From NCBI GenBank assembly GCA_024636005.1, contig JAGXHV010000042.1, positions 1 through 45,524 on the forward strand: a stretch of 45,524 bases of DNA, in the 5' to 3' direction. The notes beneath the pieces are model-generated. The model worked only from the letters and a program-made list of their open reading frames with translations. It was not told where the DNA came from and did not search any database. This stretch comes from Bacillota bacterium. GTDB lineage: Bacteria > Bacillota > Clostridia > Peptostreptococcales > Acidaminobacteraceae. This document shows positions 9,215-35,931 of the stretch, piece by piece. Each line of letters starts with the position of its first letter. The first letter of the stretch is position 1. The position numbers were made by a program, and so were the translations under genes.

Positions 9215-9224
9215 GGTGTAAATC

Positions 9225-10388
9225 ATGTTTTTAAACTATTTGAAAGGGTTTGCAGAAGCTAGTGCATTATATAGTGAAGAACCTGAATTTGAGACGACTC
9301 ATCTCGAGAACGTCATTCTTCATTCCATGCATCTAAGTAAAAAAAGGAATCTGGATGAAAAATTGGTAATGGCAATTGCCATGGGTCATGATTTGGGAAG
9401 AACCCATTTGAAAATTCATGGCAAAAAGCACGCTAAAACTGGCTCGAAGCTGATGAAGAAGCTCCTTAAGGATTCAGATTTCAGCGAAGAAGAAAAGAGG
9501 ATCATTTGTGATGCGATTGAACACCATAATGAAAAGAATAAAATCCATAATGAGTATGATGAACTGATCAAGGATGCCGATTCATTGGCCCATAGGGATG
9601 ATGGCATTCTTGCTGAGGACAACAAATATGAACAATCAAGAATCATTGCGAGCGAGTGTGATCTTCTGGAGATGGCATTTGCACCTGTCTTTGAATGGAT
9701 TAGTGTGTATAATGAACATGTCGAAATACTCAAAGCAAAATATTTGGACATGGACAAATGCAATAATCATCCTGAGGAATGGGTTCACGAGATAAGAACC
9801 GGTATAAGAAAGTTAAGAACGATATTGAAGTTGCTTGCACCTTCTGAAAAAAAAATTCAGAGGAAGTTGGATCAGTGGGCACTTGAAATGTCAGAAGCTA
9901 GGTTTCTCCATGTGGCCACAGTGAAATCAGATCGTTTATCTCCAAAAGTGAACAAAAAATTGAATGGACTTTATAAAGAGCTCGGTTCGAAACTCACTCA
10001 AAAGAAAATTGAAAAAAGAATTGAACAATTGAATATAGAGTTTGATCACGAAAAAATCATGTCAGATTCACTTGCTAGGTATGAGCGATTGATCATGGAT
10101 GCTACTCCGAAAAACATGCATAAACTGAGGGTCAAAGGAAAATCCATCAAATATTTGACACAGATGGGACTGATGGAGTTGTCACCTCGTGAGATGGTGG
10201 ACGCAGTGCTCAGACTACATGATTTGCTTGGAGATTATAATGATTTTCTAGAGATGGCTGATTATTTCAAAGACTCAAGTTATAAAGATGAGGCGAAAAA
10301 TCTCATGGAGTCGATTCAAATGGAAATTTTTTTTATACGAAAAATCATTCTTTGTTGTACAACAACAAAGAATGTAAGGTATAATTAG
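9225..10388 (+). CDS. HD-domain / CHAD-domain fusion protein
   Basis: N-term HD (MGHDLGRTHLKIHG, IEHHNEKN, KDADSLAH), C-term CHAD (VHEIRTGIRKLRTILKLL; MHKLRVKGKSIKYL). Confidence 0.85.
   Translation: MFLNYLKGFAEASALYSEEPEFETTHLENVILHSMHLSKKRNLDEKLVMAIAMGHDLGRTHLKIHGKKHAKTGSKLMKKLLKDSDFSEEEKRIICDAIEHHNEKNKIHNEYDELIKDADSLAHRDDGILAEDNKYEQSRIIASECDLLEMAFAPVFEWISVYNEHVEILKAKYLDMDKCNNHPEEWVHEIRTGIRKLRTILKLLAPSEKKIQRKLDQWALEMSEARFLHVATVKSDRLSPKVNKKLNGLYKELGSKLTQKKIEKRIEQLNIEFDHEKIMSDSLARYERLIMDATPKNMHKLRVKGKSIKYLTQMGLMELSPREMVDAVLRLHDLLGDYNDFLEMADYFKDSSYKDEAKNLMESIQMEIFFIRKIILCCTTTKNVRYN
10346..10374. promoter_or_regulatory. Perfect 13-bp inverted repeat CATTCTTTGTTGT-aca-ACAACAAAGAATG
   Basis: Read directly; lies just upstream of TATAATTA (10380) and the amidase operon. 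Confidence 0.5.
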
Positions 10389-12255: not shown

Positions 12256-13788
12256 ATGGTATATATAGGCGTTTTGCTCGCATCCGTTTTTTGGATTTTG
12301 GTCTTTTCAATCGTATTGAATATGATGGGAAAAGATAACGAGGCACTTGTGGTATTGATCAAGAAATATGCACAAGGTAATTTTCTTGCGGAAAATGATC
12401 AAAAGTTAAGATTCACAAACAACAAAAAATTGGAAGATGAAATTGGCGGACTTCAAAAGACAATGAAGGACTGGCTATATAACATGCTGAAATCTGAACT
12501 TGAATTGTCCAAATATGCCAAAATGTTGCAGGAAAATGCTGAGGAATCATTAAAGCATATGTCTTTGATAGAATCGCAAATCAACATAATCAAGGGCAAC
12601 TCGCATCAGATTGCAAGTGCTTCTCTGGAAAACGCTTCTGTTTCGGAGGAACTTCAGAGTGCCAATGACCAAATGGCAAATGACAGCCATGAGTATATGG
12701 AAGTGACCGAGGGGACAATCAAGAACATTCAGACTGGGAAACACGCTATCGTTGGTGCACTGGAAGGCATTGATGAAGTGGAACTCAAAATGAAAAGCTC
12801 TGTTGATAAAGTCAATGCACTTCAAGACTTGATGGACGCAATTCAGACCATGACTCAAGGCATCTCAAAAATTTCTGACCAGACCAACCTCTTAGCGCTC
12901 AATGCGTCCATTGAATCCGCACGCGCGGGTGAGGCCGGTAGAGGTTTTGCGGTAGTGGCAAATGAAGTCACCAAGTTGGCTGATGAAAGTTCAAGACTCG
13001 CTGAAGATATCGATCGAAAAGTCATGGCGATTGCCGAAAACATGAAATCCGTTGTGACAGAGATCAATGGTGGTATGAAAACAACGCAAGCACTTAAAGG
13101 TAATAATCAGGAAGCGATTTCTCATTTGGATGAAATGGTCAAGGGTTCTGAAAGCATGCTTACATTCATTCGAAATATTTCGATTGGAATTCAGGAACAA
13201 TTGAAGGCAACTGAAGTGTTGTCGGGAAATGTTGAGAAGCTTGCTGGCATAGCTGCAGATTCCGATGGTGCGACTGTAGAGGCTGGAAAAGACGTTGAGG
13301 ACCATCGACATAAAACAAATGAAAATGCGGTTCTTGCACAGTCCATTAAAGGAATTTCACAAAACTTGAATGCATTTGTACAGATGTTTGACGAGGCGCT
13401 TAGCGAAGAATTGTTCAGTACTGGCGAAAAACTTGCAGATATAATGAAAAAGCAAAAGATCGACAATGCTTACCTCCAGAAATTTTCAAAGGAAACCGGA
13501 ATTTCTGAATTTTATATCACTGATGAAAATGGGGTTACGGTACTATCGAACAATCCCGCAGGAATAGGATTTACAATTGAAAATGATCCTACCACTCAAG
13601 CTTATCCGTTTTATGCAATTCTTAAAAATCCGAAACACACAGTCTCACAATCTATGATGGTTAGAGATATTGACGGAAAATACTTTAAGTTTGTAGGGTT
13701 GTCCAGAACGGATCAAAGTGGAATCATTCAGTTAGGACTCAGTCTTGAAGATTTGTTGAAATTCAGAGGAAGATATGCGTTACTTTAA
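12256..13788 (+). CDS. Methyl-accepting chemotaxis protein with C-terminal sensor-like region
   Basis: ISDQTNLLALNASIESARAGEAGRGFAVVANEVTKLADESS hairpin tip; single N-terminal TM; about 130-aa Cache/PAS-like tail (ISEFYITDENGVTVLSNNPAGIGF). Confidence 0.88.
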   Translation: MVYIGVLLASVFWILVFSIVLNMMGKDNEALVVLIKKYAQGNFLAENDQKLRFTNNKKLEDEIGGLQKTMKDWLYNMLKSELELSKYAKMLQENAEESLKHMSLIESQINIIKGNSHQIASASLENASVSEELQSANDQMANDSHEYMEVTEGTIKNIQTGKHAIVGALEGIDEVELKMKSSVDKVNALQDLMDAIQTMTQGISKISDQTNLLALNASIESARAGEAGRGFAVVANEVTKLADESSRLAEDIDRKVMAIAENMKSVVTEINGGMKTTQALKGNNQEAISHLDEMVKGSESMLTFIRNISIGIQEQLKATEVLSGNVEKLAGIAADSDGATVEAGKDVEDHRHKTNENAVLAQSIKGISQNLNAFVQMFDEALSEELFSTGEKLADIMKKQKIDNAYLQKFSKETGISEFYITDENGVTVLSNNPAGIGFTIENDPTTQAYPFYAILKNPKHTVSQSMMVRDIDGKYFKFVGLSRTDQSGIIQLGLSLEDLLKFRGRYALL

Positions 13789-15016
13789 TACAATAGTAGT
13801 TGGTGGAGGACCCAGCGGCATCACTTGTTCTTATCACTTGAAAATGAATAATATTGAACACTTGATTATAGAAAAAGGTGAAATGCTTCAGACGTGGAAG
13901 TATGAACGCTGGGATTCCTTTTATCTCGTGACACCTAACTGGATGACCAATCTTCCGGGGTTGAATCACGAGATTCCATACAATAATGAATATATGTCTA
14001 AAGATGAGATCTTGCGAGTATTTGAGTGTTATCTCAATTTTGTGTGTCCAAATTACATGGAAAATACCAATATAGGTCGCATCTCAAAATGCGAAGAAGG
14101 TTATCTTCTTGAGACGGACCAAGGTAAATTCATGGCTAAGCACATCATAATCGCAACAGGGATGTACAATAATCCTTTTTTTCCCGGAATTAGTGAAAAA
14201 ATCCCTAAAAACATCTTTCAGATGCATTCATCAGACTACAGAAACCCAGATCAACTAAAGCCAGGAAATGTTGTTGTGGTCGGTAGCGGATGGTCTGGTG
14301 TTCAAATTGCACTCGAATTACGTAAGTTGACAGGTCGTGATATATATCTTTCGATAGGAAGCATGACACCGCTGCCAACGGTCTATAGAAATGTAAATGG
14401 CGTATACTGGTTGAATCGATTATCCGGTTTCAAAAAAGGAAAAGCGATACTAAGTTATCATCTCGATGATTTCAAAAATGACAATATTGCCAACAAATTG
14501 AATCAGAATTTGAAACAGTGTCAAATGAAAGGTGTTCAGATTTTAGGTCGAATGAATGATGTGGAAGAGGAAATTCTGATCTTTTCCGATTCGCTTCTCA
14601 AATCCATTGAAGATGCTGATGACTATTTGGACCAGGTCAAAATTAGAATTGAAGAGCATATTGCAAAAGAGAAAGTGGAAGTTTCGAGCGGAACACTGGA
14701 TCATTATAATAATCGTTTGGATTTGGATCTGCTGAACAGGATTACAGAACTTGACTTAGACCGAAACAAAATTGGTAATATCATATGGTGCACTGGTTTT
14801 AAGAGAGATTATTCGTGGATTGATTTGCCGATCTTCAATGAAAAAGGTTTGCCTAAAGTTGAAGATGGAGAATCCATATCTGAAAATATCTACTTTTGCA
14901 GCCTGGGTCTCAAAGTGGACAATAAGCTCAAATCTGCGTTTGGAGTGGGTCTTTTTGCAATCAACGAGTCTGCCGAACGAACTGTTCAAATGTTGCTTGA
15001 TAATACTATGAAGTAA
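13775..15016 (+). CDS. FMO-like NAD(P)/FAD-dependent oxidoreductase
   Basis: VVGGGPSGITCSYHL, ERWDSFYLVTPNWMTNLPG, VVGSGWSGVQIALEL dual Rossmann motifs; 14-nt overlap with the MCP gene. Confidence 0.85.
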   Translation: MRYFNTIVVGGGPSGITCSYHLKMNNIEHLIIEKGEMLQTWKYERWDSFYLVTPNWMTNLPGLNHEIPYNNEYMSKDEILRVFECYLNFVCPNYMENTNIGRISKCEEGYLLETDQGKFMAKHIIIATGMYNNPFFPGISEKIPKNIFQMHSSDYRNPDQLKPGNVVVVGSGWSGVQIALELRKLTGRDIYLSIGSMTPLPTVYRNVNGVYWLNRLSGFKKGKAILSYHLDDFKNDNIANKLNQNLKQCQMKGVQILGRMNDVEEEILIFSDSLLKSIEDADDYLDQVKIRIEEHIAKEKVEVSSGTLDHYNNRLDLDLLNRITELDLDRNKIGNIIWCTGFKRDYSWIDLPIFNEKGLPKVEDGESISENIYFCSLGLKVDNKLKSAFGVGLFAINESAERTVQMLLDNTMK

Positions 15017-15025
15017 GGGGGCACA

Positions 15026-17356
15026 ATGAATATAAAAAATGGTATTGGAATTTCTTTGACAAGAAAAGAAAGTTTGGATAAGGTTTCAGGACGAGTTATG
15101 TATGGGAGCGACAATATGACGCCTCAAATGCTTTATGGTGCTCTTAAATCAAGTCCACATGCACATGCGAAAATTTTAAAGATGGACACTGAAAAAGCTG
15201 AAGCCATGAAAGGCGTCAAAGCAATTTTTACAGGAAATGACTACAAAGACAATTTGGGATTATATCTATGTGATAAACCTCCTGTTGCACGAAATGTCGT
15301 CAGGCATTATGGGGAGGTTGTAGCGGCTGTCGTTGCAGATACGTATGCCAATGCAAAGGCTGCAGCAGATGCGATTGCGGTGGAATACGAAGTGATGACA
15401 CCAATTTTATCACCAATGGAAGCGCTAAGTGATGAAGCGTATATCATTCATGAAGAGATGGAATCATATAGTCACATCAAACCGATTCATCCTGAACCGG
15501 GTACCAACGTCGCAAACAGAACTAAAATTAGAAAAGGTAATCCCACAGAGGCTTTTAAAAGTGCTCATGTGACTATAGAGACTTTTGTTGAAATACCACC
15601 GGGAGACCATGTTGCCATGGAACCCAGAGTGGCTATCGCAGAAATCAAAAAGACCGGAAATGTCCATATTTTGTCGTCGACTCAAGCGCCTTTTGTTGTC
15701 AAAGGGTTGATGCATCAATTCTTCGGAATCGATCCAGGGAAAATTATTGTGAAAGCACCCTTGATTGGTGGTGGATTCGGAGGTAAGGCCGGGATCCAAC
15801 TTGAAGGTCTAGCTTATTTGCTATCGTTAAAAGTTGGAGGTAGACCTGTAAAACTCGTCAACACACGTGAGGAAGATTTGACCGGTTCTCCTGGACATAT
15901 TGGACTTCAAGCGAAAGTTAAAATAGCCGCTGATGCCGAAGGAAAAATCATGGGCATGGATATGGATTATTATTTCAACAGTGGCGCATATGCCGATTAT
16001 GCTGTCAACGTCTCCAGAGCGGCAGCGATTTCTTGTACTGGACCATATTATGTACCCAATATAAGATGCGACTCCATGTGTATTTATACCAACATGCCAT
16101 TTGCCACAGCCTATAGAGGGTTCGGACATATTGAAATGGCATTCGCTATCGAACGCGCCATGGATGAACTGGCAAATGCGCTGGAGATGGATCCACTTGA
16201 ACTCAGAATTAAAAATGGAGTCAAACCACATGATACCACACCCGTTCAAAGTGTACTCAATGAGAGCACGGGAGATATTATCAAGTGTTTTGAAGAAGTT
16301 GGAGCAATGCTCGGTGGTGACATTGGAGCCATAGAACAGATGGATAACAATGTGGTTCGTGTCAAAGGTGTTACTGGACTCTGGAAAGCGCCTGCCATGC
16401 CAACCAATACAGATGCTGGTGCTATTCTTACGTTCAATGCCGACGGCAGTTGCAACCTAAACACTGGCGTTGTTGAAATCGGTCAAGGCACAAAGACCGG
16501 ACTTGCTCAAATCGCATCTGAACGACTTGGAATACCAGTGGATAAGGTACATGTAGTCATGGAAGTGGACACAAGCATTTCTCCAAGCGATTGGGCAACT
16601 GCTGCCAGCCGCGGCCTTATGATGGCTGGAATGGCAACACTTGAAGCTTGTGAAGATGCTGAAAATCAAATCAAAGAAATTGCATCGGCAGTATTGAGAG
16701 TGCCGACAAGAGATCTGAAAGTGGCTGGCGAACGCGTTTTTGTACCGGATGAACCCAAAATAGGACTAAACCTTTCTGAGGTGGTGCTAGGCTATGTCTA
16801 TCCAAATGGAAACGCAATCCATGGACAAGTGATCGGTTCCGGAAAATATATCGCAAAACATCTGACGGACATAGATCCTGAAACCGGAGAAGGTCATCCG
16901 GATCTCGAATGGACACTCGGTGCTGAGGGCGTTGAAATTGAAGTGAATTTAAGTACTGGAAAATATAAGATTCTAAAAGCGGTTTGTTGCATCGATGTCG
17001 GCAAAGTGATCAGTCCGGCATTGGCAAGAGGACAAATTGTTGGTGGCATGGCAATGGGTATGGGCTATACAACCATGGAGGGTTTCACATTCAATGATAG
17101 GGGACAGGTCACCAATGGTGTTCTTAGAGATTATAAGATCATGCGTTATGGGGACGAACCAGAATACCAAGTTAAATTTCTCGAAACGCCTCAGCAAGAT
17201 GGACCATATGGTGCGAGAGGGCTTGGGGAACAATCCGTAATAGGAATGCCAGGCGCAATCGCAAACGCACTTTCAAGAGCTGTTGGCAAAGGAATGAACC
17301 AGATTCCATTGACACCGGAGAAAGTTTGGAAGACATCAATGGAGGTGAAGAGATGA
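15026..17356 (+). CDS. Xanthine dehydrogenase-family molybdopterin-binding subunit (copy 1)
   Basis: APLIGGGFGGKAG, AYRGFGHIEMAFAIERAMDELA, ARGLGEQSVIG (catalytic Glu). Confidence 0.93.
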   Translation: MNIKNGIGISLTRKESLDKVSGRVMYGSDNMTPQMLYGALKSSPHAHAKILKMDTEKAEAMKGVKAIFTGNDYKDNLGLYLCDKPPVARNVVRHYGEVVAAVVADTYANAKAAADAIAVEYEVMTPILSPMEALSDEAYIIHEEMESYSHIKPIHPEPGTNVANRTKIRKGNPTEAFKSAHVTIETFVEIPPGDHVAMEPRVAIAEIKKTGNVHILSSTQAPFVVKGLMHQFFGIDPGKIIVKAPLIGGGFGGKAGIQLEGLAYLLSLKVGGRPVKLVNTREEDLTGSPGHIGLQAKVKIAADAEGKIMGMDMDYYFNSGAYADYAVNVSRAAAISCTGPYYVPNIRCDSMCIYTNMPFATAYRGFGHIEMAFAIERAMDELANALEMDPLELRIKNGVKPHDTTPVQSVLNESTGDIIKCFEEVGAMLGGDIGAIEQMDNNVVRVKGVTGLWKAPAMPTNTDAGAILTFNADGSCNLNTGVVEIGQGTKTGLAQIASERLGIPVDKVHVVMEVDTSISPSDWATAASRGLMMAGMATLEACEDAENQIKEIASAVLRVPTRDLKVAGERVFVPDEPKIGLNLSEVVLGYVYPNGNAIHGQVIGSGKYIAKHLTDIDPETGEGHPDLEWTLGAEGVEIEVNLSTGKYKILKAVCCIDVGKVISPALARGQIVGGMAMGMGYTTMEGFTFNDRGQVTNGVLRDYKIMRYGDEPEYQVKFLETPQQDGPYGARGLGEQSVIGMPGAIANALSRAVGKGMNQIPLTPEKVWKTSMEVKR

Positions 17357-18174
17357 TCGCATACAATCTTGATTACTTTAAACCAGAGACAACTGAAGAG
17401 GCATATGAATGCATGAAATCGCTGAAAGAGGAAAAAGTCAATGCTCTTTATTATTCAGGAGGCACTGAGGTAATCACCAATCTCAGAAAAGGCGCTGTAA
17501 AGGCCGATGCGGTAATCGACCTTAAAGGAATTGGTGAAATGTCAGAAATCCTCGTTGAAGACCAATACATCATTGTTGGAGCAAATGTTCCGCTGAATGC
17601 GATGATAGAACATGTAGAACTGGGAACTGTGATGCCGATTCTCAATAAAATTGCTGATCATACCGTCAGAAATGCATTGACCATTGGCGGAAATATTTGT
17701 GGTAAATTGCCATTTAGAGAAGCAGTGCTCCCTCTGCTGGCATTGAACTCTCTAGTAAAATGGGTCGATGAGAGCGGAGTTAAAGAATCTTTGCTTAGAG
17801 ATGTTTTTGATAAAAGATTGAAATTGCCTCCAAATGCATTTTTATATCAGATTATGATCCCAAGAAAAGCAAGTGGAAAGATGATGTCAAAGAGAATGGA
17901 AGCCCACACTGAAGTTGATTACCCAATTTTACATGTGGTCATGAATATATCTGATACTGAAGTGTTTGTTGGTTTATCCGGATTCGCAAGTTTTCCGGTT
18001 TATCAGGTGGTACCAAGAAATGAGTACGACGAGTGGTCTGATCCGGTGGAATCGATTGCTGCGATGTTTGAAAAAGATGCAAAATCAGATGAGCGTGCCA
18101 GCAAAGAATATCGAGTTCATCTTTTGAAAAACCAGATTGCATTGTTTACCGGAGGTGCTTATGATTCAATATAG
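17353..18174 (+). CDS. Xanthine dehydrogenase-family FAD-binding subunit (copy 1)
   Basis: YYSGGTEVITNLRKG, VRNALTIGGNICGKLPF; ATGA overlap with upstream gene. Confidence 0.87.
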   Translation: MIAYNLDYFKPETTEEAYECMKSLKEEKVNALYYSGGTEVITNLRKGAVKADAVIDLKGIGEMSEILVEDQYIIVGANVPLNAMIEHVELGTVMPILNKIADHTVRNALTIGGNICGKLPFREAVLPLLALNSLVKWVDESGVKESLLRDVFDKRLKLPPNAFLYQIMIPRKASGKMMSKRMEAHTEVDYPILHVVMNISDTEVFVGLSGFASFPVYQVVPRNEYDEWSDPVESIAAMFEKDAKSDERASKEYRVHLLKNQIALFTGGAYDSI

Positions 18175-18643
18175 TGGAAATGTCAATATTCAGTTGAATG
18201 TCAATCGTGAAATCCATGAAGTGGTTGTAATGCCTCAGGATACTTTGCTCAGGGTATTAAGAGAAAAAGTTGGATATACGGGTCCCAAAGCGGGATGTGA
18301 GAACGGAGATTGTGGAGCTTGTACGGTTTTACTAGATGGAAAACCGGTTAAAGCCTGTCTCATGCTTGCGGTTGAAACTGTGGGAAAAGAAATTTTGACT
18401 GTTGAAGGCCTTGAAGATACTGAGATTCAAAAGGCATTCGTATCCGAAGGTGGATTCCAGTGTGGTTTTTGTACAGCGGGATTTCTTATGAATGCATTTG
18501 CACTACTTGAGACTAAGCCGGATGCAAATGAAGCGGAAAAAAAAGATTGGCTAAGCGCAAATCTATGTCGGTGCACTGGATATGAAGGTATTGAAAATGC
18601 CCTAAACCTTGCACAAAAGAGAGTTCAAGAGAAAAAAAGATAA
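18161..18643 (+). CDS. (2Fe-2S)-binding subunit of Mo hydroxylase (copy 1)
   Basis: CENGDCGACTVLLDGKPVKAC and CGFCTAGFLMNA...NLCRCTGYEGI. Confidence 0.93.
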   Translation: MIQYSGNVNIQLNVNREIHEVVVMPQDTLLRVLREKVGYTGPKAGCENGDCGACTVLLDGKPVKACLMLAVETVGKEILTVEGLEDTEIQKAFVSEGGFQCGFCTAGFLMNAFALLETKPDANEAEKKDWLSANLCRCTGYEGIENALNLAQKRVQEKKR

Positions 18644-18867: not shown

Positions 18868-20079
18868 TTATGATGTGAGTGCCATTCGCTCTTTTGTAAG
18901 TCTTTTATAGGTATTATCGATGAATTCCAAAACTGCTTTAATTTCTGGATGTTGTGATGTGTCTCTATAACTGGCGGAAATGTTTTCAATCAGTTTCATC
19001 AAATCGGATAATGCCTGTTTGTAAAGTTTGTCAATATCAAAATTTGGAAATTCTTTTTGATTTTCAATGTGTCGATCCAATTCATCGAGAATGGATGTAA
19101 GTACTTTCTCGTATTTCTTGGCATCCTTTCCTGGTTTATCCAAAGTCTCGTAAATGACTTCTTTGACTTTCAAAATATCCTCTTCCTTCTGCCAAAATGA
19201 AAATTGGAGAGCGTTTAAATCTTCGGGGATACAATGGGATCTTCCTTCGAATATGGCACTTGCTTTAACTAGATTTCGGCTGAGTTTCAATCGTCTTGGT
19301 GATATGGAGATTTTGTGTTTTTCTTCGAGTTGAGTGGCAATGCTTACCATGCTTCTTGCTATTTCGGTATTCATCTTTATTTTGGGAAGTTCGTCTTGAA
19401 TCAACATCAGTTCTGATAATTTGATTCTGGACTTGCAGGTCAAATCATCATCCATCAAAATCATTTTCACTTTGTTGTCAGGATCTTTAAGTGGTTTGAG
19501 ATGATAACGCGCAAGGAATCTGTCGTGAAGTGCCTGAAGTTTGAAGTCGGTTTCTTCAGCGTCAAGATCGTCTTTTTGTTTTGGAAAAAAATTGGTATCT
19601 GCCATGAAGAATCGAAGATTGGTTTTTATGGTCTCGGTTCCGTTTTTAAACTCACCTTCATTCAGAATGGTCAATAAACCAGAGTTGGCAACTTGATCGC
19701 TGACTCTATAGAATTCTGAGCAAAATGCAATCACTGCATCGGGTAAAAACCCTTTGTAATGACGTTTAATAATGCCGTGTGTTTTGAAATAGGCAATGTC
19801 TGGAGCTCCGAAAATATTGTTTGGGGATATATCGGCACCCATTTGAATATGAAAATAGGGGGTGCCTTCTGCTTGATCGAAATCCATGTGAGCTACAAAT
19901 TCTCTCAGAATGGCTGACTTTGCTATCCCAGGTTCCCCCAGTACAATCATGTGGGTCCTTGAGATCATGGATAACATCAGACAGGTCACAAATTCATCCA
20001 CTTCATAATATTTGGAAGCGATGTGATTACGGATATCGTGTAATTTTTGGCTTGCTGATATGAGTTCATTGGTTTTCAT
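18868..20079 (-). CDS. RavA-like MoxR-family AAA+ ATPase
   Basis: Walker A GEPGIAKSA; ADISPNNIFGAPDI; LLTILNEGEFKNGTE; NFFPK sensor region; RavA-like layout next to a VWA gene. Confidence 0.82.
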   Translation of the reverse strand: MKTNELISASQKLHDIRNHIASKYYEVDEFVTCLMLSMISRTHMIVLGEPGIAKSAILREFVAHMDFDQAEGTPYFHIQMGADISPNNIFGAPDIAYFKTHGIIKRHYKGFLPDAVIAFCSEFYRVSDQVANSGLLTILNEGEFKNGTETIKTNLRFFMADTNFFPKQKDDLDAEETDFKLQALHDRFLARYHLKPLKDPDNKVKMILMDDDLTCKSRIKLSELMLIQDELPKIKMNTEIARSMVSIATQLEEKHKISISPRRLKLSRNLVKASAIFEGRSHCIPEDLNALQFSFWQKEEDILKVKEVIYETLDKPGKDAKKYEKVLTSILDELDRHIENQKEFPNFDIDKLYKQALSDLMKLIENISASYRDTSQHPEIKAVLEFIDNTYKRLTKERMALTS

Positions 20080-20092
20080 AAATCGTATCCTC

Positions 20093-22036
20093 CTATATCA
20101 AAGTGTATAATCGCTGATTCGTCAGGTTGTTCCAATTGCCTAAATTATCGCCCCTAATGTCAAGGATCTCATCTGAAATGAGGCCGATATCACCATAGTC
20201 CTTGTAGGTGTATGAATGCATTATTATGGTGTAGAGCTTGAATTTCCGCTCCCTTTTAAGTGCGAGGAATTTTTCTCTGAAATTCGGATGAATCTCACAT
20301 TGACCATCTGTAATGAATAAAATGTCGCTGTTCTTATGTTTGGCTTGTTTTATGATTTCCATAGCCGTGGAGAGAGGTTTCTCAAAGTCTGTGCCACCAC
20401 AGATGAAAGTATCCATGATGTCCAGGACATCTCCCGCAGTTATTGTGAGTGGGTTGATTTCTTTAATGTATAAAGGCTCAGACGCTGATGCAAATTGGAT
20501 CAGCACCAATTTTCGCTTTTGGATTTTTGAAATTTCAAGGATCGCTAAAATATGTGCAAGTGTCTCATCGAATTTTTTACCTTGCATGGATCCTGAACCG
20601 TCGTAACACAGAATGATGGGTCCCTTTCGTTTGTCTTTTTTTGCTGCCATCTCAATAGTCAGAAGATTGTCATTGAGGTATCTGTCGTAAAAATCGTTCT
20701 CGAATGCCTCGATGTCCAGTGCTATACCGATGAGTTCATCCTCAATAAGTCCCTCGATATCATTTGAGTACCGGATACCATCTTGCGGTGTTATTTTTTC
20801 TCGCTTTTTTTTATAGGCAATGGTACTGGCGTGTTTTTTATTTTTTCCCACTTTGTTGATGAATTCTATGAATCGGGCAGATTTTGTTCGACTGTATAGG
20901 GATATGATCTCATCAAAAGTAAGATCGGAAATAGTGCGCCCCGGTATGCCAAGTGTCTTGATTTGGGTGTTGAAGTGATCCAGTTTTTCATTTGTGGCCA
21001 CGATAATATCATCCCAGTCCAGTGATTCCGTCTTTTTTTGAATTTCACCCAGTTTGTCTTCGAGCTCTTTTTTGAGTTCAGGTGTCATTTTCAACATTTC
21101 GGTTTCAATGGGAGGACTCTTTGGAGTTGCTTTGCCATCGATTATCTTATTTTGGTCCACATGTTCATTGTCGTCAATAGTATCCGTTTGTTTATGGAAT
21201 GGAGAGGCACCATGTGATTCACCGATGGAAAAGGATTTGATATAGGGTTTGAAACGGGATTCCAGATCGTCCTTGATATACTCTTCGTAATCCGAATCCA
21301 CTTCGCCTTCCTTCCTTAGCACTTCTTCCAGAGCATCCTCGACAGTTGTGGACGTTTCTGATTGGTCGAGATGTTCCCTCACTTTTTCGATGTAATCAGT
21401 GAGTGGCTTTTTCTCCTCGTTTTCTTGTGATGTAGAAGGCAATACTTTATCAGGTTGATTGTCTGAAGGATCAGTATTTTTAATGGATTCGTCATTTTTG
21501 CTTAGCAATGGGATCAACGTCATTAAAAATGCTTTAGGTTCTTCAATTTGAGAGGATGTTTGAGATAAAATTTCATTGATCATCTCAATTTCTCTTGAAC
21601 TTAGGATATCAGTAAATTCAAAATTTTCAAAGTCATTACTTTTGATCTTTGACAACAAGTTGTTGTAGGACTCTATATGTTCTTCCATCTCGCTCAAAAA
21701 TTCGGATCCTCTCAGTTTTTCAAGCAACTGATCGAGTAGGAGTTTCATTGCCAGATAAGATTCGCCTTTTGAACCTGCACACCTCAGCCTAAGAATTGTA
21801 GTTCTGGGATGCGATGCAATTGATTCAATGATGACATCGTGCATGGAAAGAGAATCTTCGGAGTTGAGTTTTATTACAATTTTGTATAGAATAAGAAATA
21901 GATCCATTGAAATCGCGTCGAACTCTGGAATGAGTCTTTGACCGTTTTCGATGAACTGTCGCAACAAATTTGATTTTGCAAGGGTTTCCCTGAATATCAG
22001 CTCATCCATTAAGTTATGGGTTACTATGCTTTGCAA
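20093..22036 (-). CDS. VWA-domain (ViaA/CoxE-like) protein
   Basis: MIDAS ILCYDGSGSMQGKKF, ICGGTDFEKPL, ILFITDGQCEI; probable TTG start at 22036 after AAAGGTGG (longest ORF to 22102). Confidence 0.82.
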   Translation of the reverse strand: MQSIVTHNLMDELIFRETLAKSNLLRQFIENGQRLIPEFDAISMDLFLILYKIVIKLNSEDSLSMHDVIIESIASHPRTTILRLRCAGSKGESYLAMKLLLDQLLEKLRGSEFLSEMEEHIESYNNLLSKIKSNDFENFEFTDILSSREIEMINEILSQTSSQIEEPKAFLMTLIPLLSKNDESIKNTDPSDNQPDKVLPSTSQENEEKKPLTDYIEKVREHLDQSETSTTVEDALEEVLRKEGEVDSDYEEYIKDDLESRFKPYIKSFSIGESHGASPFHKQTDTIDDNEHVDQNKIIDGKATPKSPPIETEMLKMTPELKKELEDKLGEIQKKTESLDWDDIIVATNEKLDHFNTQIKTLGIPGRTISDLTFDEIISLYSRTKSARFIEFINKVGKNKKHASTIAYKKKREKITPQDGIRYSNDIEGLIEDELIGIALDIEAFENDFYDRYLNDNLLTIEMAAKKDKRKGPIILCYDGSGSMQGKKFDETLAHILAILEISKIQKRKLVLIQFASASEPLYIKEINPLTITAGDVLDIMDTFICGGTDFEKPLSTAMEIIKQAKHKNSDILFITDGQCEIHPNFREKFLALKRERKFKLYTIIMHSYTYKDYGDIGLISDEILDIRGDNLGNWNNLTNQRLYTLI

Positions 22037-22118
22037 AACATCACCACCTTTATATGTTGTAGAAATGTTTACCCTAAAGTACACTTGGTAATCTGATAAC
22101 AATTATAATGCCAAATTT

Positions 22119-22137
22119 ACTAACAATGTTTGTTAGT
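22119..22137. promoter_or_regulatory. Inverted repeat ACTAACA-atgtt-TGTTAGT in divergent intergenic region
   Basis: Read directly; right half extends to TTTGTTAGTTGGTAC, repeated upstream of pucR (27215). Confidence 0.5.
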
Positions 22138-22149
22138 TGGTACTAAATA

Positions 22150-22182
22150 AATAGACTTTATCGTCTGAAAATTTAGTCTATT
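22150..22182. promoter_or_regulatory. Inverted repeat AATAGACT-N17-AGTCTATT in divergent intergenic region
   Basis: Read directly; upstream of TATAAT at 22213. Confidence 0.45.
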
Positions 22183-22258
22183 ACAATAATGAGATAAATG
22201 TGTAAAAAAAGATATAATGAGAGAGAGACGTACTGAATTATTGTTGGAGGTCATTAAA

Positions 22259-23089
22259 ATGAAAACATTTGAATACTTGAGACCAACGTCGCTAAAAGAA
22301 GCGTTGGACATGCTAAAGAAACATGACGGAAATGTATCCATACTCAACGGGGGAACAGACCTCATAGTGAGAATGCGTGAAGGTCACTCATCACCTGAAA
22401 TTGTTATGGACATCAAAAAAATACCGGGCCTTGATCAAATACAAGTGGATGAAGACCGTATCACAATTGGCGCAACGGTATTACTCAATGATTTGGGATT
22501 GAACGAGGTCATAAAAACAAGATATCCTTATCTTGCACAAGCCGCGTTATCAGTTGGCTCGAAGCAAGTCAGAAACAGAGCGACGTGCATAGGCAATATT
22601 TGCAACGCTTCACCGCTTGCAGATACAGCAACTCCACTTCTCGCTTTAAATGCGGATGTCCACATTTATGGAGAAGAGGGTATAAAGACTGTACCTCTCA
22701 AGGATTTTTTTGTTTTTGTTAGAAAAACAATTCTGAAACCTACTGAGATAGTGACGGGAATTTCTTTTAAACAAGATCCAGAAGCACTGGGAATCTTCAC
22801 AAAAATGTCACGTCGCAAAGAAGTAGATTTATCGACTGTGTGTTCCACTGTCATTCGCTCAGGTTCTGAATATAGAATCAGTTGCGGCGCAGTAGCTCCA
22901 ACACCTGTGAGATTAGCTAAAACTGAAGCTTTTTTAACTGGAAAAGCATTGACCAGTGAAGTCATTGATGAGGCATGTAAATTGGCTTCAGGAGAAGTTA
23001 CACCTATAAGTGACATTAGAGCTTCTGAAGAGTATAGACGTGAAATGGTCGGAGTTATGCTTCGCCACGCGCTCTCGGAATGGCTATAG
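22259..23089 (+). CDS. Xanthine dehydrogenase-family FAD-binding subunit (copy 2)
   Basis: SILNGGTDLIVRMREG, NRATCIGNICNASPLADTATPLLAL; start ATG 22259 after GGAGG. Confidence 0.92.
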   Translation: MKTFEYLRPTSLKEALDMLKKHDGNVSILNGGTDLIVRMREGHSSPEIVMDIKKIPGLDQIQVDEDRITIGATVLLNDLGLNEVIKTRYPYLAQAALSVGSKQVRNRATCIGNICNASPLADTATPLLALNADVHIYGEEGIKTVPLKDFFVFVRKTILKPTEIVTGISFKQDPEALGIFTKMSRRKEVDLSTVCSTVIRSGSEYRISCGAVAPTPVRLAKTEAFLTGKALTSEVIDEACKLASGEVTPISDIRASEEYRREMVGVMLRHALSEWL

Positions 23090-23099
23090 GAGGATAAAC

Positions 23100-23570
23100 A
23101 TGAAAACTATGATAGAATTTACACTCAATGGAGAAGTTGTTGAGTGTTTGGTAGATAATCAAAGAACCCTACTTAAGATGATCAGAGAAGATTTCGATCT
23201 TACTGGAGCTAAAGAAGGTTGTGGTGCTGGAGAATGTGGTGCTTGTACGATTATTATGAATGGCAAGGCGCTAAACGCTTGTCTCGTACTTGCAGTTGAA
23301 GCAGATGGCACAGAGATTACAACAATTGAAGGATTGGTAGTGGACGGAGAGCTCGATCCGCTTCAAGTGTCATTCATAGACAATGCGGCTCTTCAGTGCG
23401 GTTATTGCACACCAGGTATGATTATGACTGCAAAAGCGATGCTGGAAGAAAATCCACATCCAACTGAAAATGAGATCAGAGAAGGCATCAGCGGCAACTT
23501 GTGTCGTTGTACCGGTTATAAAAAAATAATAGAGGCAATCCAAGTAGTTGCCGACCAAAATAAAGCGTAG
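23100..23570 (+). CDS. (2Fe-2S)-binding subunit of Mo hydroxylase (copy 2)
   Basis: CGAGECGACTIIMNGKALNAC, CGYCTPGMIMTAKAML, NLCRCTGYKKI; start ATG 23100 after AGGAGG. Confidence 0.94.
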   Translation: MKTMIEFTLNGEVVECLVDNQRTLLKMIREDFDLTGAKEGCGAGECGACTIIMNGKALNACLVLAVEADGTEITTIEGLVVDGELDPLQVSFIDNAALQCGYCTPGMIMTAKAMLEENPHPTENEIREGISGNLCRCTGYKKIIEAIQVVADQNKA

Positions 23571-23582
23571 GAGGTGGGAGAC

Positions 23583-25895
23583 TTGAAGTTTGTAGGAACT
23601 AGCGTAAAACGTGTCGACGGAGTGAAAAAAGTCACAGGCTCCTTAAAATATGTGGATGACATCAAATTATCAAAAATGCTATATGTGGCTGTAAAAAGAA
23701 GTCCTCATCCGCACGCAAAAATACTGAACATCAATTTTGAAAAAGCATTGGCCATCAAAGGTGTCAAGGACATCATCACTGGAGATTTATTCACCAAACG
23801 TGGTGGACTTTATTTGGAAGACAAAAACTTTTTAGCTGTTGGAAAAGTGAGATATAGAGGCGAAGCCGTAGTCGCTGTTTGTGCCATTACAGAGGAAATC
23901 GCCCAATCGGCACTAGAATTCATTGAGATAGAATATGAAGTGTTACCTGCAGTTACCAATGCCAAAGATGCTATGAAACCCGATTCACCACTTGTGCATC
24001 CGGATTTAGGTGAATACAAATGGGCGCCAATATTCTTCCCGGTGCCAGGTACTAACATTTCAAATCACTATACACTTAGAAAAGGTGATGCGAAAAAGGC
24101 ATTTGAGACAGTAGATTTTGTAGTTGAAAATGATTTTTATGTTCCTCATGTACAGCACGTTCCTATTGAAACACATACAGCAATAGCTCAAATGGATGCG
24201 GATGGGTTTTTGACAGTTTGGGCAAGTTGTCAATCGCCATATGCTGTAAGGCAAGCCCTTTCAGAAGCATTCGACATTCCACTCAATAGACTGCGCGTAC
24301 TTTCGCCAGCAGTTGGTGGCGGTTTCGGATCGAAGGCAGGAACCACCCTTGAAGGCATTTTGATTCCTTTTGCGAAAAAATTTCCAGACCGTCCAGTCAA
24401 ATTGACTTATTCAAGACAAGATGAGTTTGAAAATGCTTATGTAAGACAAGGTCTTCATGCGAGAATAAAGACAGGTGTCAACAAAGATGGTAAAATTATA
24501 GCTGTTGAAAATGAATTCATTTGGGATGGTGGCGCATATAATGAGTATGGCGTCAACATCGCAAAAGCAGCAGGATATGCTTCGGCAGGTCCTTATGATA
24601 TTGAAAACGTTTATACAGATTCATACTGTGTTTATACAAATCACCCGGTAGGTGGACCATACAGAGGTTTCGGAATGAGTGAAATTCATTTTGGTATTGA
24701 ACAAAATCTCGATATGGTAGCTGAACAAATTGGAATCGATCCGGTTGAAATAAGACGAATCAACGGAATGAAGCCAGGTGGTGTAACAGGTACAGGCGAA
24801 GTGGTTGAAGTTGCTGGCTTGATGGAATGCTTAGATATCGCTGTGGATGAAATCAAATTCTATGAAAAAAGTGAATCCACAAGTCCTACTAAAGTCAGAG
24901 GTAAAGGAATCGCATGTGGTTGGAAAGCTCCATCTATGCCAACAAATGCGGCATCCTCAGCAATCATCAAACTGAATGAGGACGGAACTGCGCATCTATT
25001 AGTTAGTGCACAGGATATCGGTCAAGGTTCAGACACAGTCATGACACAAATTGCAGCTGAAGTGCTTTCCATTTCACCTGAGAAAATTACCATTCGCACA
25101 GGTGACACAGACCAAACACCATACGAGTGGCAAACAGTTGCATCCAGAATCACTTATTCGACGGGCAGAGCTGTATTTGAAGCAGCAAATGATGCGATGA
25201 ACCAATTGCTTGAACTCGCCCAAATTAAAATAGGACTATCCAAGCGCGATTTGGAACTTAGAGATGGTTATGTGGTCTCAAAAATCTATCCAGATAGAAA
25301 AGTTGCAATTTCAGAACTTGCTCTTGGACTAACTTTTGAAGACGGATCAGGTATTCATGGACCAATTATAGGCCGTGGCGCTTTTATTCCTCCAAATGTT
25401 CGTAATGCCGATAAGAAAACCGGTCTGGGGGAACATCCGGTTGTGTTCTGGACCTATGGCGCACAAGCAATTGAAGTTGAAGTGGATTTGGAGACTGGAG
25501 CAGTAAAAGTTCTGAAAGTTGTCTCTGTATTTGATGTCGGTAAAGTCATGAATCCACAATTACTCGAAGGACAAATGGAAGGTGCTATCGCACAAGGGAT
25601 AGGTACAGCACTATTTGAGGAACTTATGCTGAAAGATGGTAAAGTACTCAATCCTTCATTTGTTGACTACAAAATTCCAACAGCAGACGATATGCCTGAG
25701 ATGGTCATAAAGTTTGTGGAAAATCCGGAGGAAACTGGTCCATTTGGAGCCAGAGGTGTTGCCGAACCGGCAATGGTTCCTACCGCACCTGCAATAGCGA
25801 ATGCGATATATGCTGCTACAGGTATTCGCTTAAATACAATGCCTTTGACTGCAGAAAGAGTTTTGAATGCAATCAAGGCGAAAGACAACGATTAA
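23583..25895 (+). CDS. Xanthine dehydrogenase-family molybdopterin-binding subunit (copy 2)
   Basis: GGGFGSKAGTTLEG, GPYRGFGMSEIHF, GARGVAEPAMVP; TTG 23583 fits GGAGGTG spacing better than GTG 23574. Confidence 0.92.
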   Translation: MKFVGTSVKRVDGVKKVTGSLKYVDDIKLSKMLYVAVKRSPHPHAKILNINFEKALAIKGVKDIITGDLFTKRGGLYLEDKNFLAVGKVRYRGEAVVAVCAITEEIAQSALEFIEIEYEVLPAVTNAKDAMKPDSPLVHPDLGEYKWAPIFFPVPGTNISNHYTLRKGDAKKAFETVDFVVENDFYVPHVQHVPIETHTAIAQMDADGFLTVWASCQSPYAVRQALSEAFDIPLNRLRVLSPAVGGGFGSKAGTTLEGILIPFAKKFPDRPVKLTYSRQDEFENAYVRQGLHARIKTGVNKDGKIIAVENEFIWDGGAYNEYGVNIAKAAGYASAGPYDIENVYTDSYCVYTNHPVGGPYRGFGMSEIHFGIEQNLDMVAEQIGIDPVEIRRINGMKPGGVTGTGEVVEVAGLMECLDIAVDEIKFYEKSESTSPTKVRGKGIACGWKAPSMPTNAASSAIIKLNEDGTAHLLVSAQDIGQGSDTVMTQIAAEVLSISPEKITIRTGDTDQTPYEWQTVASRITYSTGRAVFEAANDAMNQLLELAQIKIGLSKRDLELRDGYVVSKIYPDRKVAISELALGLTFEDGSGIHGPIIGRGAFIPPNVRNADKKTGLGEHPVVFWTYGAQAIEVEVDLETGAVKVLKVVSVFDVGKVMNPQLLEGQMEGAIAQGIGTALFEELMLKDGKVLNPSFVDYKIPTADDMPEMVIKFVENPEETGPFGARGVAEPAMVPTAPAIANAIYAATGIRLNTMPLTAERVLNAIKAKDND

Positions 25896-25928: not shown

Positions 25929-27161
25929 ATGTCTAAAAAAGATGAGAATTTGGTAAATAAGCACGCAATTACTGATGTATCGGCACTTGGAACACCCAAA
26001 ATGCTTACATTGGGCTTACAGCACGCATTTACAATGTTCGGTGCTACGGTACTTGTTCCAATCATCACAGGTCTAGACGTTTCGGTATCATTGTTCTTGG
26101 CCGGTGTAGGTACACTTTTATTCCACCTTGTAACAGGTGGCATGGTACCTGCATTCTTAGGATCTTCATTTGCATTTATTGCGCCAATGCTCGCTGTGGC
26201 TAGTAGTCACGGTCTTGATTATGCGCGAGGCGGCATAGTTGTCGCCGGTGTCATCTACCTGATTCTTGCGGGTTTGATGCAATTATTCGGTACTGACAGA
26301 ATTATCAAATTTTTCCCACCAATCGTCACTGGTCCGATCATTCTTGTTATCGGTCTTAAACTGGCGCCGGTTGCAATCGATATGGCATCAACGAATTGGT
26401 TGTTAGCGATTCTTGCGTTTACGATCGTAACTGTTGTCAGTGTCTTTGCTAAAGGTTTCCTAAAAGTAATTCCTGTAATCATTGGTTTGATTGGTTCTTA
26501 TATTGTTGCGGCAGTATTTGGATTAATTGATTTTACACCAATCAATGATGCGGCAATCTTCGGAATTCCTGCATTCTCATTAGCTAAATTTAATTTGGAC
26601 GCTGTATTGACTGTAGCTCCGATTGCTCTTGCTACAATGGTTGAGCATATCGGTGATGTTATAGCAATTGGCGCTACTGTTGAAAAAGACTTCATCAAAA
26701 AGCCAGGTTTATCTAGAACACTTCTTGGTGACGGTCTCGCAACTTCAATATCTGCTATGTTTGGTGGTCCTGCGAACACGACTTATTCTGAAAATACAGG
26801 CGTTTTGGCACTTACAAAAGCTTGGGATCCAAAAATAATGAGAGTCGCAGCGGTATTTGCAATCATTTTGGGTCTCGTACCTAAATTAGGCGCACTTATT
26901 GCTACAATCCCAACAGCAGTAATTGGTGGTATCTCTATAATTCTTTTCGGTATGATCGCAGCTATTGGTGCTAGAACACTTGTTGAAAATCAAGTGGATT
27001 TCAACAAACCAAGAAACTTGATCATCGCAGCAGTCATAGTTGTTTTAGGACTTGGTGGAGCAGTGCTTCCAATCAACATAGGCGCATTATCTCTCAGCAT
27101 CGAAGGTATGGCACTTGCAGCAATAGTCGGCATTTTCTTAAACATCGTTTTACCAGAATAA
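25929..27161 (+). CDS. NCS2/NAT-family nucleobase permease, UraA/PyrP-like
   Basis: QHAFTMFGATVLVP, VPAFLGSSFAFIAP, MVEHIGD, ANTTYSENTGVLALTK. Confidence 0.92.
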   Translation: MSKKDENLVNKHAITDVSALGTPKMLTLGLQHAFTMFGATVLVPIITGLDVSVSLFLAGVGTLLFHLVTGGMVPAFLGSSFAFIAPMLAVASSHGLDYARGGIVVAGVIYLILAGLMQLFGTDRIIKFFPPIVTGPIILVIGLKLAPVAIDMASTNWLLAILAFTIVTVVSVFAKGFLKVIPVIIGLIGSYIVAAVFGLIDFTPINDAAIFGIPAFSLAKFNLDAVLTVAPIALATMVEHIGDVIAIGATVEKDFIKKPGLSRTLLGDGLATSISAMFGGPANTTYSENTGVLALTKAWDPKIMRVAAVFAIILGLVPKLGALIATIPTAVIGGISIILFGMIAAIGARTLVENQVDFNKPRNLIIAAVIVVLGLGGAVLPINIGALSLSIEGMALAAIVGIFLNIVLPE

Positions 27162-27213: not shown

Positions 27214-27331
27214 ATTTGTTAGTTGGTTACAACAATATCAATATTTTGTGCAAAACATTGTATCTCAACAACAACAAATAGTATAATTAATACACAGAAT
27301 ATTTAGTATAATATTGTTGGGAGGTTTGATC

Positions 27332-29032
27332 ATGCAAAATAAAATGGGAGTTCGACTGAGCGAAATTATTTCTCTTGAAGCTTTTGAAGGCTGTGAAGTT
27401 ATTAGTGGTTCAAACGGACTATCCAGACCAGTCACCAAAGTCAATGTAATGGAAGTTCCTGATATTGTTCAGTGGCTTCAACCTGGAGAGATGCTACTTA
27501 CTACGGCTTACTCTATAAAAGACAATGTTTTCAAGTTAAATGAAATGATTCCGAAGATGCATGAGATCGGAGTCGCAGGACTTGGGATAAAAATGAAACG
27601 TTATATAGAAGAATTACCGGCATCGGTCATCACACTTTCCGATGAGATAGGGTTTCCTATCATAAAGATTCCTATGGAAATATCTTTCGGTGATTTAATC
27701 ACATCAGTTCTTACGACAGTTGTGAGCAATCAAACCAATTTACTCATTCAAATTGACGCATTCAATAATCAACTTAAAGACATCATGCTTAGAGGTGGTG
27801 ATTTGAGGGAAATATGCGATATGATTGGGGACGTTGTTGGTGCACCTGTAGCCATTACTGAAGAATTATTTAAGGATTTTGTCATCAATTCTAATCAAGA
27901 GCATGAAGATGAAATTGAAGAAATTGTCAACAAAATGCTTTTTAAACGTACTGATAAATTCAGAAGAATTTATAAAGACCAAGGAATTGAAACGGCTGTG
28001 GATGTTATAGGTGGTCATCCGGTCAAACGGTTGATGATTCCGATTTTCTCGGAAGAAGTTCTTTACGGGCAGGTTATCATTTGGAATATTGATGAGAAAG
28101 TCGAAGAAAAGACACTGTTCATGATTCAAGCTGCAGTATCACTTATTGCACTACATTCAACAAAAAAATTATCTATTTATGAAAATGAAAACAAACATAA
28201 GATTGAATTTATCGAAGAATTGCTATCACCACAAGAGAGTCAGCAACAGAGGGCAATCGAAAAATCCAATTATTTTGATTTTGATAGAAATAAGGCACAT
28301 GGTGTTGTTTTGGTTAAAACAGTGGATGCACCATATGACGTAAGAATGACACCAAATAACACTCAAATCATGAAACAACTCAATTCTAAATTGGTTAGTG
28401 TTGTTGAAAGGATGCAAAGACACTATAAGGGTACTTTGCTTTATGGAAATAAAAGTGACCGAGTCATATTTTTGCTTAGTTTTGATCCATATGCCTCTCC
28501 TGAGGACAGCAAAAATGCCATGATTTCCTTTTCCAAGGAACTTACAAATTTTGCAAAATTCGAAAATATCGACAAAAAGATTCACATTGGAATTGGTCGG
28601 GTTTATTCACCGCTTGGCATGCTTCATAAAAGTTACAAAGAATCTGAGCGCGCCATTCACAAACTAGAACTGAGCAATTCAGATCAAAACGCACTTCATT
28701 TTGATGATTTGGGCATTTATAGAATACTTTCAAATGAAAGCATTCAACCCGAACTTGTTCAGTTTTTCATGGAAGTTCTAGGACCGATAGTCAATTATGA
28801 TAGGGATAAAGACGCAGAGCTCCTCAATACACTTAAAATGTATTATGCCTGTGGATGCAATCTCAAAAAAGTATCCGAAGAAATGTATACACATTACAAT
28901 ACAGTGATTTACCGTATGCAACGGATTAAGGAAATAGGAAATATTGATTTTAGCAATCCAGATGTATCACTCAATGTGCATATAGCTATTAAAATAATGG
29001 ATGTAATTAAATTGGACTTAATTAAGAAATAG
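27332..29032 (+). CDS. PucR/CdaR-family transcriptional regulator
   Basis: N-terminal PucR-type domain (VTKVNVMEVPDIVQWLQPGEMLLTTAYSIKD), C-terminal HTH_30 (YACGCNLKKVSEEMYTHYNTVIYRMQRIKEI). Confidence 0.92.
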   Translation: MQNKMGVRLSEIISLEAFEGCEVISGSNGLSRPVTKVNVMEVPDIVQWLQPGEMLLTTAYSIKDNVFKLNEMIPKMHEIGVAGLGIKMKRYIEELPASVITLSDEIGFPIIKIPMEISFGDLITSVLTTVVSNQTNLLIQIDAFNNQLKDIMLRGGDLREICDMIGDVVGAPVAITEELFKDFVINSNQEHEDEIEEIVNKMLFKRTDKFRRIYKDQGIETAVDVIGGHPVKRLMIPIFSEEVLYGQVIIWNIDEKVEEKTLFMIQAAVSLIALHSTKKLSIYENENKHKIEFIEELLSPQESQQQRAIEKSNYFDFDRNKAHGVVLVKTVDAPYDVRMTPNNTQIMKQLNSKLVSVVERMQRHYKGTLLYGNKSDRVIFLLSFDPYASPEDSKNAMISFSKELTNFAKFENIDKKIHIGIGRVYSPLGMLHKSYKESERAIHKLELSNSDQNALHFDDLGIYRILSNESIQPELVQFFMEVLGPIVNYDRDKDAELLNTLKMYYACGCNLKKVSEEMYTHYNTVIYRMQRIKEIGNIDFSNPDVSLNVHIAIKIMDVIKLDLIKK

Positions 29033-35097: not shown

Positions 35098-35931
35098 ATG
35101 GAAGCTCAACTCATGAAAAAAATATTGAAGTATATCGACAAAGGAGAGGCTGTTGCACTTGTGACTGTCACCAGCAAACTCGGAAGTGGTCCTAGAGACA
35201 CTGGAAGCATGATGCTGGTGGGTTTAGGTGGTAAGTTGATTGACGGCACAATCGGTGGAGGCAAAGTTGAAGAACAGGCAAAACTTGACGCTGCTGAGTG
35301 TATCAGGAAGAACGAATCCTCTGCATTCAAATATGAACTGACTCTTAAAGATACGGAACATTCACTTGGAATGGCTTGTGGAGGAGCAGTGGAAATATTT
35401 GTGAAGGTTTTTTCCGCACAGGACAATTTGGTGATATTCGGAGGGGGGCACATTTCCCTTGAGTTGAGTAGCTTTGCTAAAGCACTGAATTATCGAGTGA
35501 CAATCATCGATCATCGACCAGAGTATATCAGTAATGAGCGATTTCCGAACGTAGAAAGCAAGATGTCAATGGACGACTTTATAGCTGAACCTTATGAAAT
35601 GGATTCAAACACCAGTGTCGTCATTGTTACACATGGTCATACCTATGACCTGGAAGCTCTTAAAATGGTCATCGATTCCCCAGCTAGATATATTGGAATG
35701 ATAGGCAGCAGAAGCAAAATAAACTTTTGTTACACGCAGCTTCAGAATGAAGGGGTATCAGAAGATCTTTTGGCAACTGTACATGCGCCGATTGGAATTG
35801 ACATCGGAGGGGAGACCCCTCCTGAAATCGCACTCGCTATCATGGGTGAGATTCAAGCAGTCAAGTACAATCGTTCAGGAGGATTTTTAAGTAAAGTAAG
35901 GAGGCCTCCAAGTGACAGAAACTCAAAATAA
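35098..35931 (+). CDS. XdhC-family Mo-cofactor insertion/sulfuration protein
   Basis: GPRDTGSMMLV, GMACGGAVEIFVKV, IGMIGSRSK, APIGIDIGGETPPEIALAIMGEI. Confidence 0.92.
   Translation: MEAQLMKKILKYIDKGEAVALVTVTSKLGSGPRDTGSMMLVGLGGKLIDGTIGGGKVEEQAKLDAAECIRKNESSAFKYELTLKDTEHSLGMACGGAVEIFVKVFSAQDNLVIFGGGHISLELSSFAKALNYRVTIIDHRPEYISNERFPNVESKMSMDDFIAEPYEMDSNTSVVIVTHGHTYDLEALKMVIDSPARYIGMIGSRSKINFCYTQLQNEGVSEDLLATVHAPIGIDIGGETPPEIALAIMGEIQAVKYNRSGGFLSKVRRPPSDRNSK

Follow-up and report, generated by a model that had tools for sequence, protein, structure and literature searches.

A stretch of 45,524 nucleotides from a Bacillota genome, referred to here as the window, carries a gene pair of the RavA/ViaA kind, encoding a MoxR-family AAA+ ATPase and a VWA-domain protein, and in related genomes the intact pair is always found divergent from the operon for one particular molybdenum hydroxylase, xdh2. 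This conserved linkage suggests a role for the pair in the assembly or control of the xdh2 enzyme. On balance, we consider it probable, if not strongly so, that the two proteins form a RavA/ViaA-derived MoxR AAA+/VWA machine dedicated to the assembly or final activation of xdh2BCA, the molybdenum hydroxylase of a purine cluster. Even for Escherichia coli, there is no agreement on the normal client of RavA/ViaA-type pairs; here, the genome points to one soluble enzyme, and the question is directly testable because the family has an available isolate, Acidaminobacter hydrogenoformans DSM 2784.

The gene pair and its genomic setting

Two operons for molybdenum hydroxylases flank the pair, which is convergent with xdh1 and divergent from xdh2 (Table 1); both the location of the two reading frames and their orientation agree with the preliminary description of this DNA. 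The longest reading frame of the VWA gene opens at TTG 22102, and an alternative start at position 22036 is also a TTG codon. Like that description, we favor the start at 22036 since it fits the homologues better and is preceded by the ribosome-binding-like sequence AAGGTGGTGA. The reading frame of xdh2C as listed overlaps xdh2B, and its true start is therefore probably located further downstream.

Table 1. Position of the gene pair and of neighboring features in the window.
Feature	Position	Strand	Remarks
xdh1 operon	15026-18643	+	Order Mo-FAD-FeS
AAA+ gene	18868-20079	-	MoxR-family AAA+ ATPase, RavA/bpMoxR clade, 403 aa (Pfam, NCBIfam, structure match); Walker A GEPGIAKS, Walker B IAFCSEF, sensor 1 MADTN, Arg finger region HDRFLAR, sensor 2 SPRR
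VWA gene	20093-22036	-	ViaA-like VWA protein, about 647 aa from TTG 22036 (Pfam, NCBIfam, homologues)
Divergent spacer VWA gene/xdh2B	22037-22258	.	222 bp
xdh2 operon	22259-25895	+	Order FAD-FeS-Mo
xdh2B	22259-23089	+	FAD subunit; ATG 22259 after GGAGGT
xdh2C	23010-23570	+	[2Fe-2S] subunit
xdh2A	23574-25895	+	Mo-binding subunit
NCS2 nucleobase permease	25929-27161	+	
PucR-type regulator	27314-29032	+	
Mo/Se cofactor genes	35098-39265	+	XdhC family, YqeB, YqeC, MocA-type cytidylyltransferase, MoeA

A single inverted repeat, CTAAAT-N22-ATTTAG (22143-22176; chance expectation 0.13 in the whole window), lies in the spacer that separates the VWA gene from xdh2B; it is a possible operator, perhaps of the PucR-type regulator. 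Similar pieces, ACTAAAT and AAAATTTAG, are also present upstream of xdh2B in genome G019, and parts of them in G036 and G039. Downstream of xdh2 follow the NCS2 permease and the PucR-type regulator, an arrangement found in most xdh2 loci, and then homologues of AllH, FdrA, and AllG (oxamate carbamoyltransferase type), a putative cyclase, and a family III CoA-transferase. Together with the cofactor genes, these make up a cluster for anaerobic purine/allantoin degradation that carries marker genes of selenium-dependent molybdenum hydroxylases; we infer the selenium dependence of xdh2 from this gene content. Full use of xanthine and uric acid by C. difficile requires yqeB (PMC11448449). The window belongs to a genome that is 77% complete.

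On the other side of the pair, the xdh1B product (17326-18174) matches the FAD-binding domain and lacks the match to CO_deh_flav_C that xdh2B has; it is a diverged flavoprotein subunit. Genes for a methyl-accepting chemotaxis protein and for an MSMEG_0569-like flavin-dependent oxidoreductase (score below cut-off) directly precede xdh1 (12256-15016) and perhaps form one operon with it. Further upstream, genes for an exopolyphosphatase, a polyphosphate kinase, and CHAD-domain proteins lie in a row (5655-10388) and represent a polyphosphate cluster.

The AAA+ protein matches the Pfam families bpMoxR (PF20030; E 6e-28, 97.7 bits), AAA_lid_8 (PF17868), and AAA_5 (PF07728), and this bpMoxR/AAA_5 core with AAA_lid_8 is the same Pfam set as that of E. 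coli RavA. RavA is also its top NCBIfam model, at 110 bits and hence below the cut-off of 681, and its top match among solved structures (E 7e-25); it was still the first structural match when the AlphaFold model of the AAA+ protein, of low confidence (pLDDT below 50 for residues 71-186), was used as the query. The LARA (PF20265) and RavA_C (PF12592) domains of E. coli RavA were both missing from the window protein in the Pfam search, and its C-terminal part consists of helices. By BLAST, the protein is 28% identical to RavA (E 4e-30) and about 31% identical to its relatives in the Bacillota.

The VWA protein is composed of an N-terminal helical domain, a low-complexity linker, which is predicted with low confidence in the structural model, a middle helical part, and a C-terminal VWA domain, with VWA_2 (PF13519) taking up the last third. 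Its MIDAS is intact, and the DGSGS, GGTDF, and TDG motifs are invariant; the VWA domain of NorD is among the fold matches of the model. ViaA is the top NCBIfam model (55.6 bits, below the cut-off of 500), and the alignment to E. coli ViaA given by both BLAST (23% identity, E 2e-12) and hhalign (98.4%, E 6e-15) covers the middle part and the VWA domain. Profile comparison aligns it over its full length with ViaA-like proteins of the Bacillota (probability 100), which share its helical N-terminus; this region had no match to the N-terminal (VAN-fold) region of E. coli ViaA. Judged by sequence, both proteins fall on the RavA/ViaA side of MoxR/VWA pairs, which corrects the membership given in the preliminary description; the pair is a branch of the RavA/ViaA kind that is neither RavA/ViaA proper nor CoxDE. 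Between congeneric genomes, dN/dS values of 0.04-0.05 for the AAA gene and 0.07-0.08 for the VWA gene indicate purifying selection within the genus and hence real, conserved genes.

Linkage of the pair to xdh2 in related genomes

Among 99 related genomes, 9 contain a full VWA gene, while an intact AAA gene, which was searched for in all 41 available genomes of the family, is present in 10 and a remnant of it in an eleventh. The VWA gene of each of the nine intact pairs is divergent from a gene for a molybdenum subunit, and this is always the xdh2A orthologue; the linkage may descend from one ancient insertion, so that the nine cases are not independent. Across these pairs, the identity of the VWA protein to that of the window falls to about 31-38%. 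A pair-holding genome has between 2 and 7 molybdenum hydroxylase matches, so that the pair is specific in its partner, although related genomes do not count as independent observations. Orthologues of xdh2A (63-100% identity; the next matches drop to 44%) occur in 27 of the 99 genomes. The pair is found in 9 of these 27 versus none of the 72 genomes without xdh2 (Fisher p 3e-6, or 1e-5 within the family, kinship being ignored in both).

The opposite flank of the pair is not kept. It is occupied by xdh1 only in the genus of the window (G000, G001, and G002), by an amidase gene in G036, by a permease gene in G033, and by unrelated genes in G004, G015, and G024. The permease of G033 was relocated to the far side of the pair, and xdh2 is still divergent from the pair. 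Since one flank changes and the other is kept, the arrangement between two operons is local to the genus; of the link to molybdenum hydroxylases suggested in the preliminary description, the part that concerns xdh2 stands, whereas an equal link to both operons does not.

Loss events point in the same direction. In G019, what remains of the AAA gene is a 139-aa piece interrupted by a TGA codon (C5:205530-205946), directly upstream of an intact xdh2 operon. In G022 (C37), xdh2, pucR, and the allH-fdrA-allG block are gone from the purine cluster; here the AAA gene is intact and the VWA gene is reduced to a 60-aa remnant. G003, a member of the window's genus, has neither the pair, nor xdh2, nor yqeB. 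These observations support the conclusion that pairs decay where either partner is lost. The intact AAA+ gene of G022, accompanied by a VWA remnant, is a natural orphan.

The pair is not generally required by xdh2-containing bacteria, as an intact copy is absent from 18 of the 27 xdh2 genomes, among them each of the 12 that lie outside the family; no CoxDE-like substitute was found at the pair-less xdh2 loci in the stretches examined. In the xdh2A tree, eight of the nine pair holders belong to a supported clade that also contains two genomes lacking an intact pair (G019 with its remnant, and G039 with none), and the ninth, G015, branches elsewhere, where the tree is not resolved. No position in the alignment of the xdh2A orthologues separates pair holders from other xdh2 genomes. 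The gene yqeB is present in 24 of the 27 xdh2 genomes, and both xdh2 and yqeB accompany the pair in all nine genomes that hold it. The pair is likewise missing from the three xdh2 genomes of the family that lack yqeB, a co-absence that is suggestive in this small sample.

Proposed role in the maturation of XDH2

Several MoxR/VWA pairs serve metal enzymes. CoxD and CoxE mature the Mo/Cu site of CO dehydrogenase (PMC3471820, PMC4240915), NorQ and NorD insert iron in NO reductase (PMC9976466), and in such systems the MIDAS of the VWA protein contacts the client and the AAA ring remodels it (PMC9976466, PMC3471820, PMC4240915). ViaA binds the flavoprotein FrdA through its VWA domain and stimulates the ATPase of RavA through its middle domain; the stimulation depends on RavA parts outside the AAA+ module (PMC10585395). 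If the pair works like NorQD, CoxDE, and RavA-ViaA, its VWA protein would use the MIDAS site to bind the folded apo-enzyme and would itself dock onto the AAA+ ring; remodeling driven by ATP would then open XDH2 for its last maturation step. This step would most plausibly be the delivery, or the sulfuration/selenation, of a molybdenum cofactor supplied by the neighboring XdhC, YqeB, YqeC, and MocA products. It is from these precedents that we infer a physical interaction with XDH2, an ATPase cycle, and the step assisted.

In favor of a dedicated xdh2 chaperone count the linkage in nine of nine pairs, the cases of decay, the presence of yqeB in every pair holder, and the CoxDE, NorQD, and ViaA precedents; against it count the xdh2 genomes that have no intact pair, the absence of a discriminating xdh2A residue, and the possibility of a single insertion. 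That a MoxR/VWA chaperone might serve such enzymes is in general not a new idea, since CoxDE-type MoxR-VWA-XdhC sets adjoin molybdenum hydroxylases other than CO dehydrogenase, e.g., on pAO1 and in Azospirillum. A pair of the RavA/ViaA lineage beside a molybdenum hydroxylase appears to be unreported in the literature searched, and if our reading is true, two separate MoxR/VWA lineages were recruited to these enzymes.

Rather than assisting assembly, the pair might modulate activity: it would then bind mature XDH2, e.g., through the flavoprotein XdhB, and restrain or redirect electron transfer. Such a role would explain why many xdh2 genomes manage without the pair (18 of 27), the change in Walker B described below could slow the ATPase, and RavA/ViaA, the closest characterized relative by sequence, lowers Frd activity via direct binding of ViaA to FrdA (PMC10585395). 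However, CoxDE-type pairs beside molybdenum hydroxylases act in maturation where tested (PMC4240915), and the cluster carries a full set of cofactor-maturation genes, and we regard modulation as unlikely.

Synteny alone cannot prove function, and the linkage could stem from a single insertion, an event that the family-restricted distribution of the pair would fit. A chaperone with a general stress or membrane function, or a gene of the purine regulon with another client such as the NCS2 permease, might in this manner have become fixed beside xdh2 by chance and then been co-inherited; a divergent promoter region would by itself give co-regulation, and the wider RavA/ViaA-like pairs have unrelated neighbors. 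We deem this origin unlikely, since the xdh2 side is kept in nine of nine cases while the opposite flank changes completely, since xdh2 stays divergent in G033 where the permease has moved, and since the pair decays in G022 where xdh2 is lost.

Position among MoxR/VWA lineages and the altered AAA+ motor

That the genes are a set of CoxDE orthologues performing Mo/Cu assembly of the CO dehydrogenase type is highly improbable, because, despite the same MoxR-plus-VWA logic beside a molybdenum hydroxylase and an XdhC family protein in the cluster, BLAST against CoxD and CoxE gave best E values of only 1.5 and 8.2 (no detectable similarity), the CoxE-type VWA family PF05762 is matched by CoxE with 288 bits and not by the window protein, the xdh2A loop PYRGFG is without the Cu-binding Cys of CoxL (AYRCSFR), and the CoxD-type Walker B LLIDE is not common to the window AAA+ protein. 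The CoxDE homology invoked in the preliminary description is consequently not supported beyond the MoxR/VWA superfamily.

The CoxD-CoxE system of Afipia (Oligotropha) carboxidovorans, with CoxF/XdhC, and the CoxDE-like sets next to other molybdenum hydroxylases resemble the pair in placing a MoxR AAA+/VWA couple beside an enzyme of the xanthine oxidase family, but they belong to another MoxR/VWA lineage, and sit downstream in the enzyme operon instead of divergent from it; the enzyme here has no Cu site. E. coli RavA-ViaA is homologous at the level of the clade, with RavA as the top structural match, and shares the layout of middle part and C-terminal VWA domain and, apparently, a helical N-terminus in front of them; it differs in gene order (AAA-VWA versus VWA-AAA here), in its location beside kup/asnA rather than a molybdenum hydroxylase, and in having LARA/RavA_C and the Walker B Asp, none of which is found here, where a Ser replaces the latter. 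NorQ-NorD and CbbQ-CbbO are MoxR AAA+/VWA machines with one metalloenzyme client each, and their MoxR clade and clients differ from those of the pair. The nearest sequence relatives are RavA/ViaA-like pairs of the Bacillota (e.g., G701 and G677), with about 31% AAA identity and a VWA protein that aligns over its full length by profile; in these, the AAA gene comes first where both genes were found, Walker B has the canonical DE, and the stretches examined contain no molybdenum hydroxylase.

A sample of such distant relatives (17 AAA proteins from 399 genomes of the phylum and 3 VWA proteins from 391 genomes of the class) had a molybdenum hydroxylase subunit nearby in none of 20 neighborhoods, which spanned 4-20 kb and in some cases ended at contig ends. 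The occurrence of the pair without a molybdenum hydroxylase, which the preliminary description had regarded as contrary to its proposal, thus applies to the wider RavA/ViaA-like family and not to this subfamily. When about 85,000 species genomes were scanned for patterns derived from the AAA alignment, a search that depends on exact matches to short peptides and would overlook diverged members, only 9 distinct loci were returned, apparently those already found, among them the loci of A. hydrogenoformans DSM 2784 and Acidaminobacter sp. JC074. All members of the subfamily that were found belong to the family of Acidaminobacter. Viral contigs yielded no relative, and plasmids, among the matches listed, only generic VWA/AAA relatives of about 22-33% identity. 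A role as a defense system is unsupported: PADLOC gave no match, and the Pfam label "MoxR-vWA-beta-propeller" is also attached to E. coli RavA.

All ten AAA members of the subfamily have IAFCSEF or IAFFSEF as their Walker B motif in the alignment, i.e., Ser-Glu in place of Asp-Glu, with the Asp-to-Ser change located at residue 121 of the window protein. The Asp is present in all 21 relatives compared (RavA and 20 generic relatives), and in the structure of RavA this residue (D114) coordinates the nucleotide (PMC6987120). Sensor 1 of the same ten members reads MADTN, with an invariant added Asp at a position where the relatives have Ala, Cys, or Thr. Our guess from these sequences is that D161 may stand in for the Walker B Asp in metal binding. 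As a tentative extension of the assembly reading, possible rather than probable, a RavA/ViaA-lineage machine would have been recruited, independently of CoxDE, to complete the assembly of a purine hydroxylase that probably depends on selenium; the Mg-ATP site of this machine would have been rebuilt by the exchange of the Walker B Asp for Ser, with the invariant Asp of the sensor-1 strand as a possible substitute carboxylate, and its ATPase cycle would be unusual, either slow or altered. The Walker A Lys, the catalytic Glu, the sensor-1 Asn, the Arg-finger region, and sensor 2 are all kept in the AAA members, and the fixed Walker B change makes them a natural variant of the AAA+ motor.
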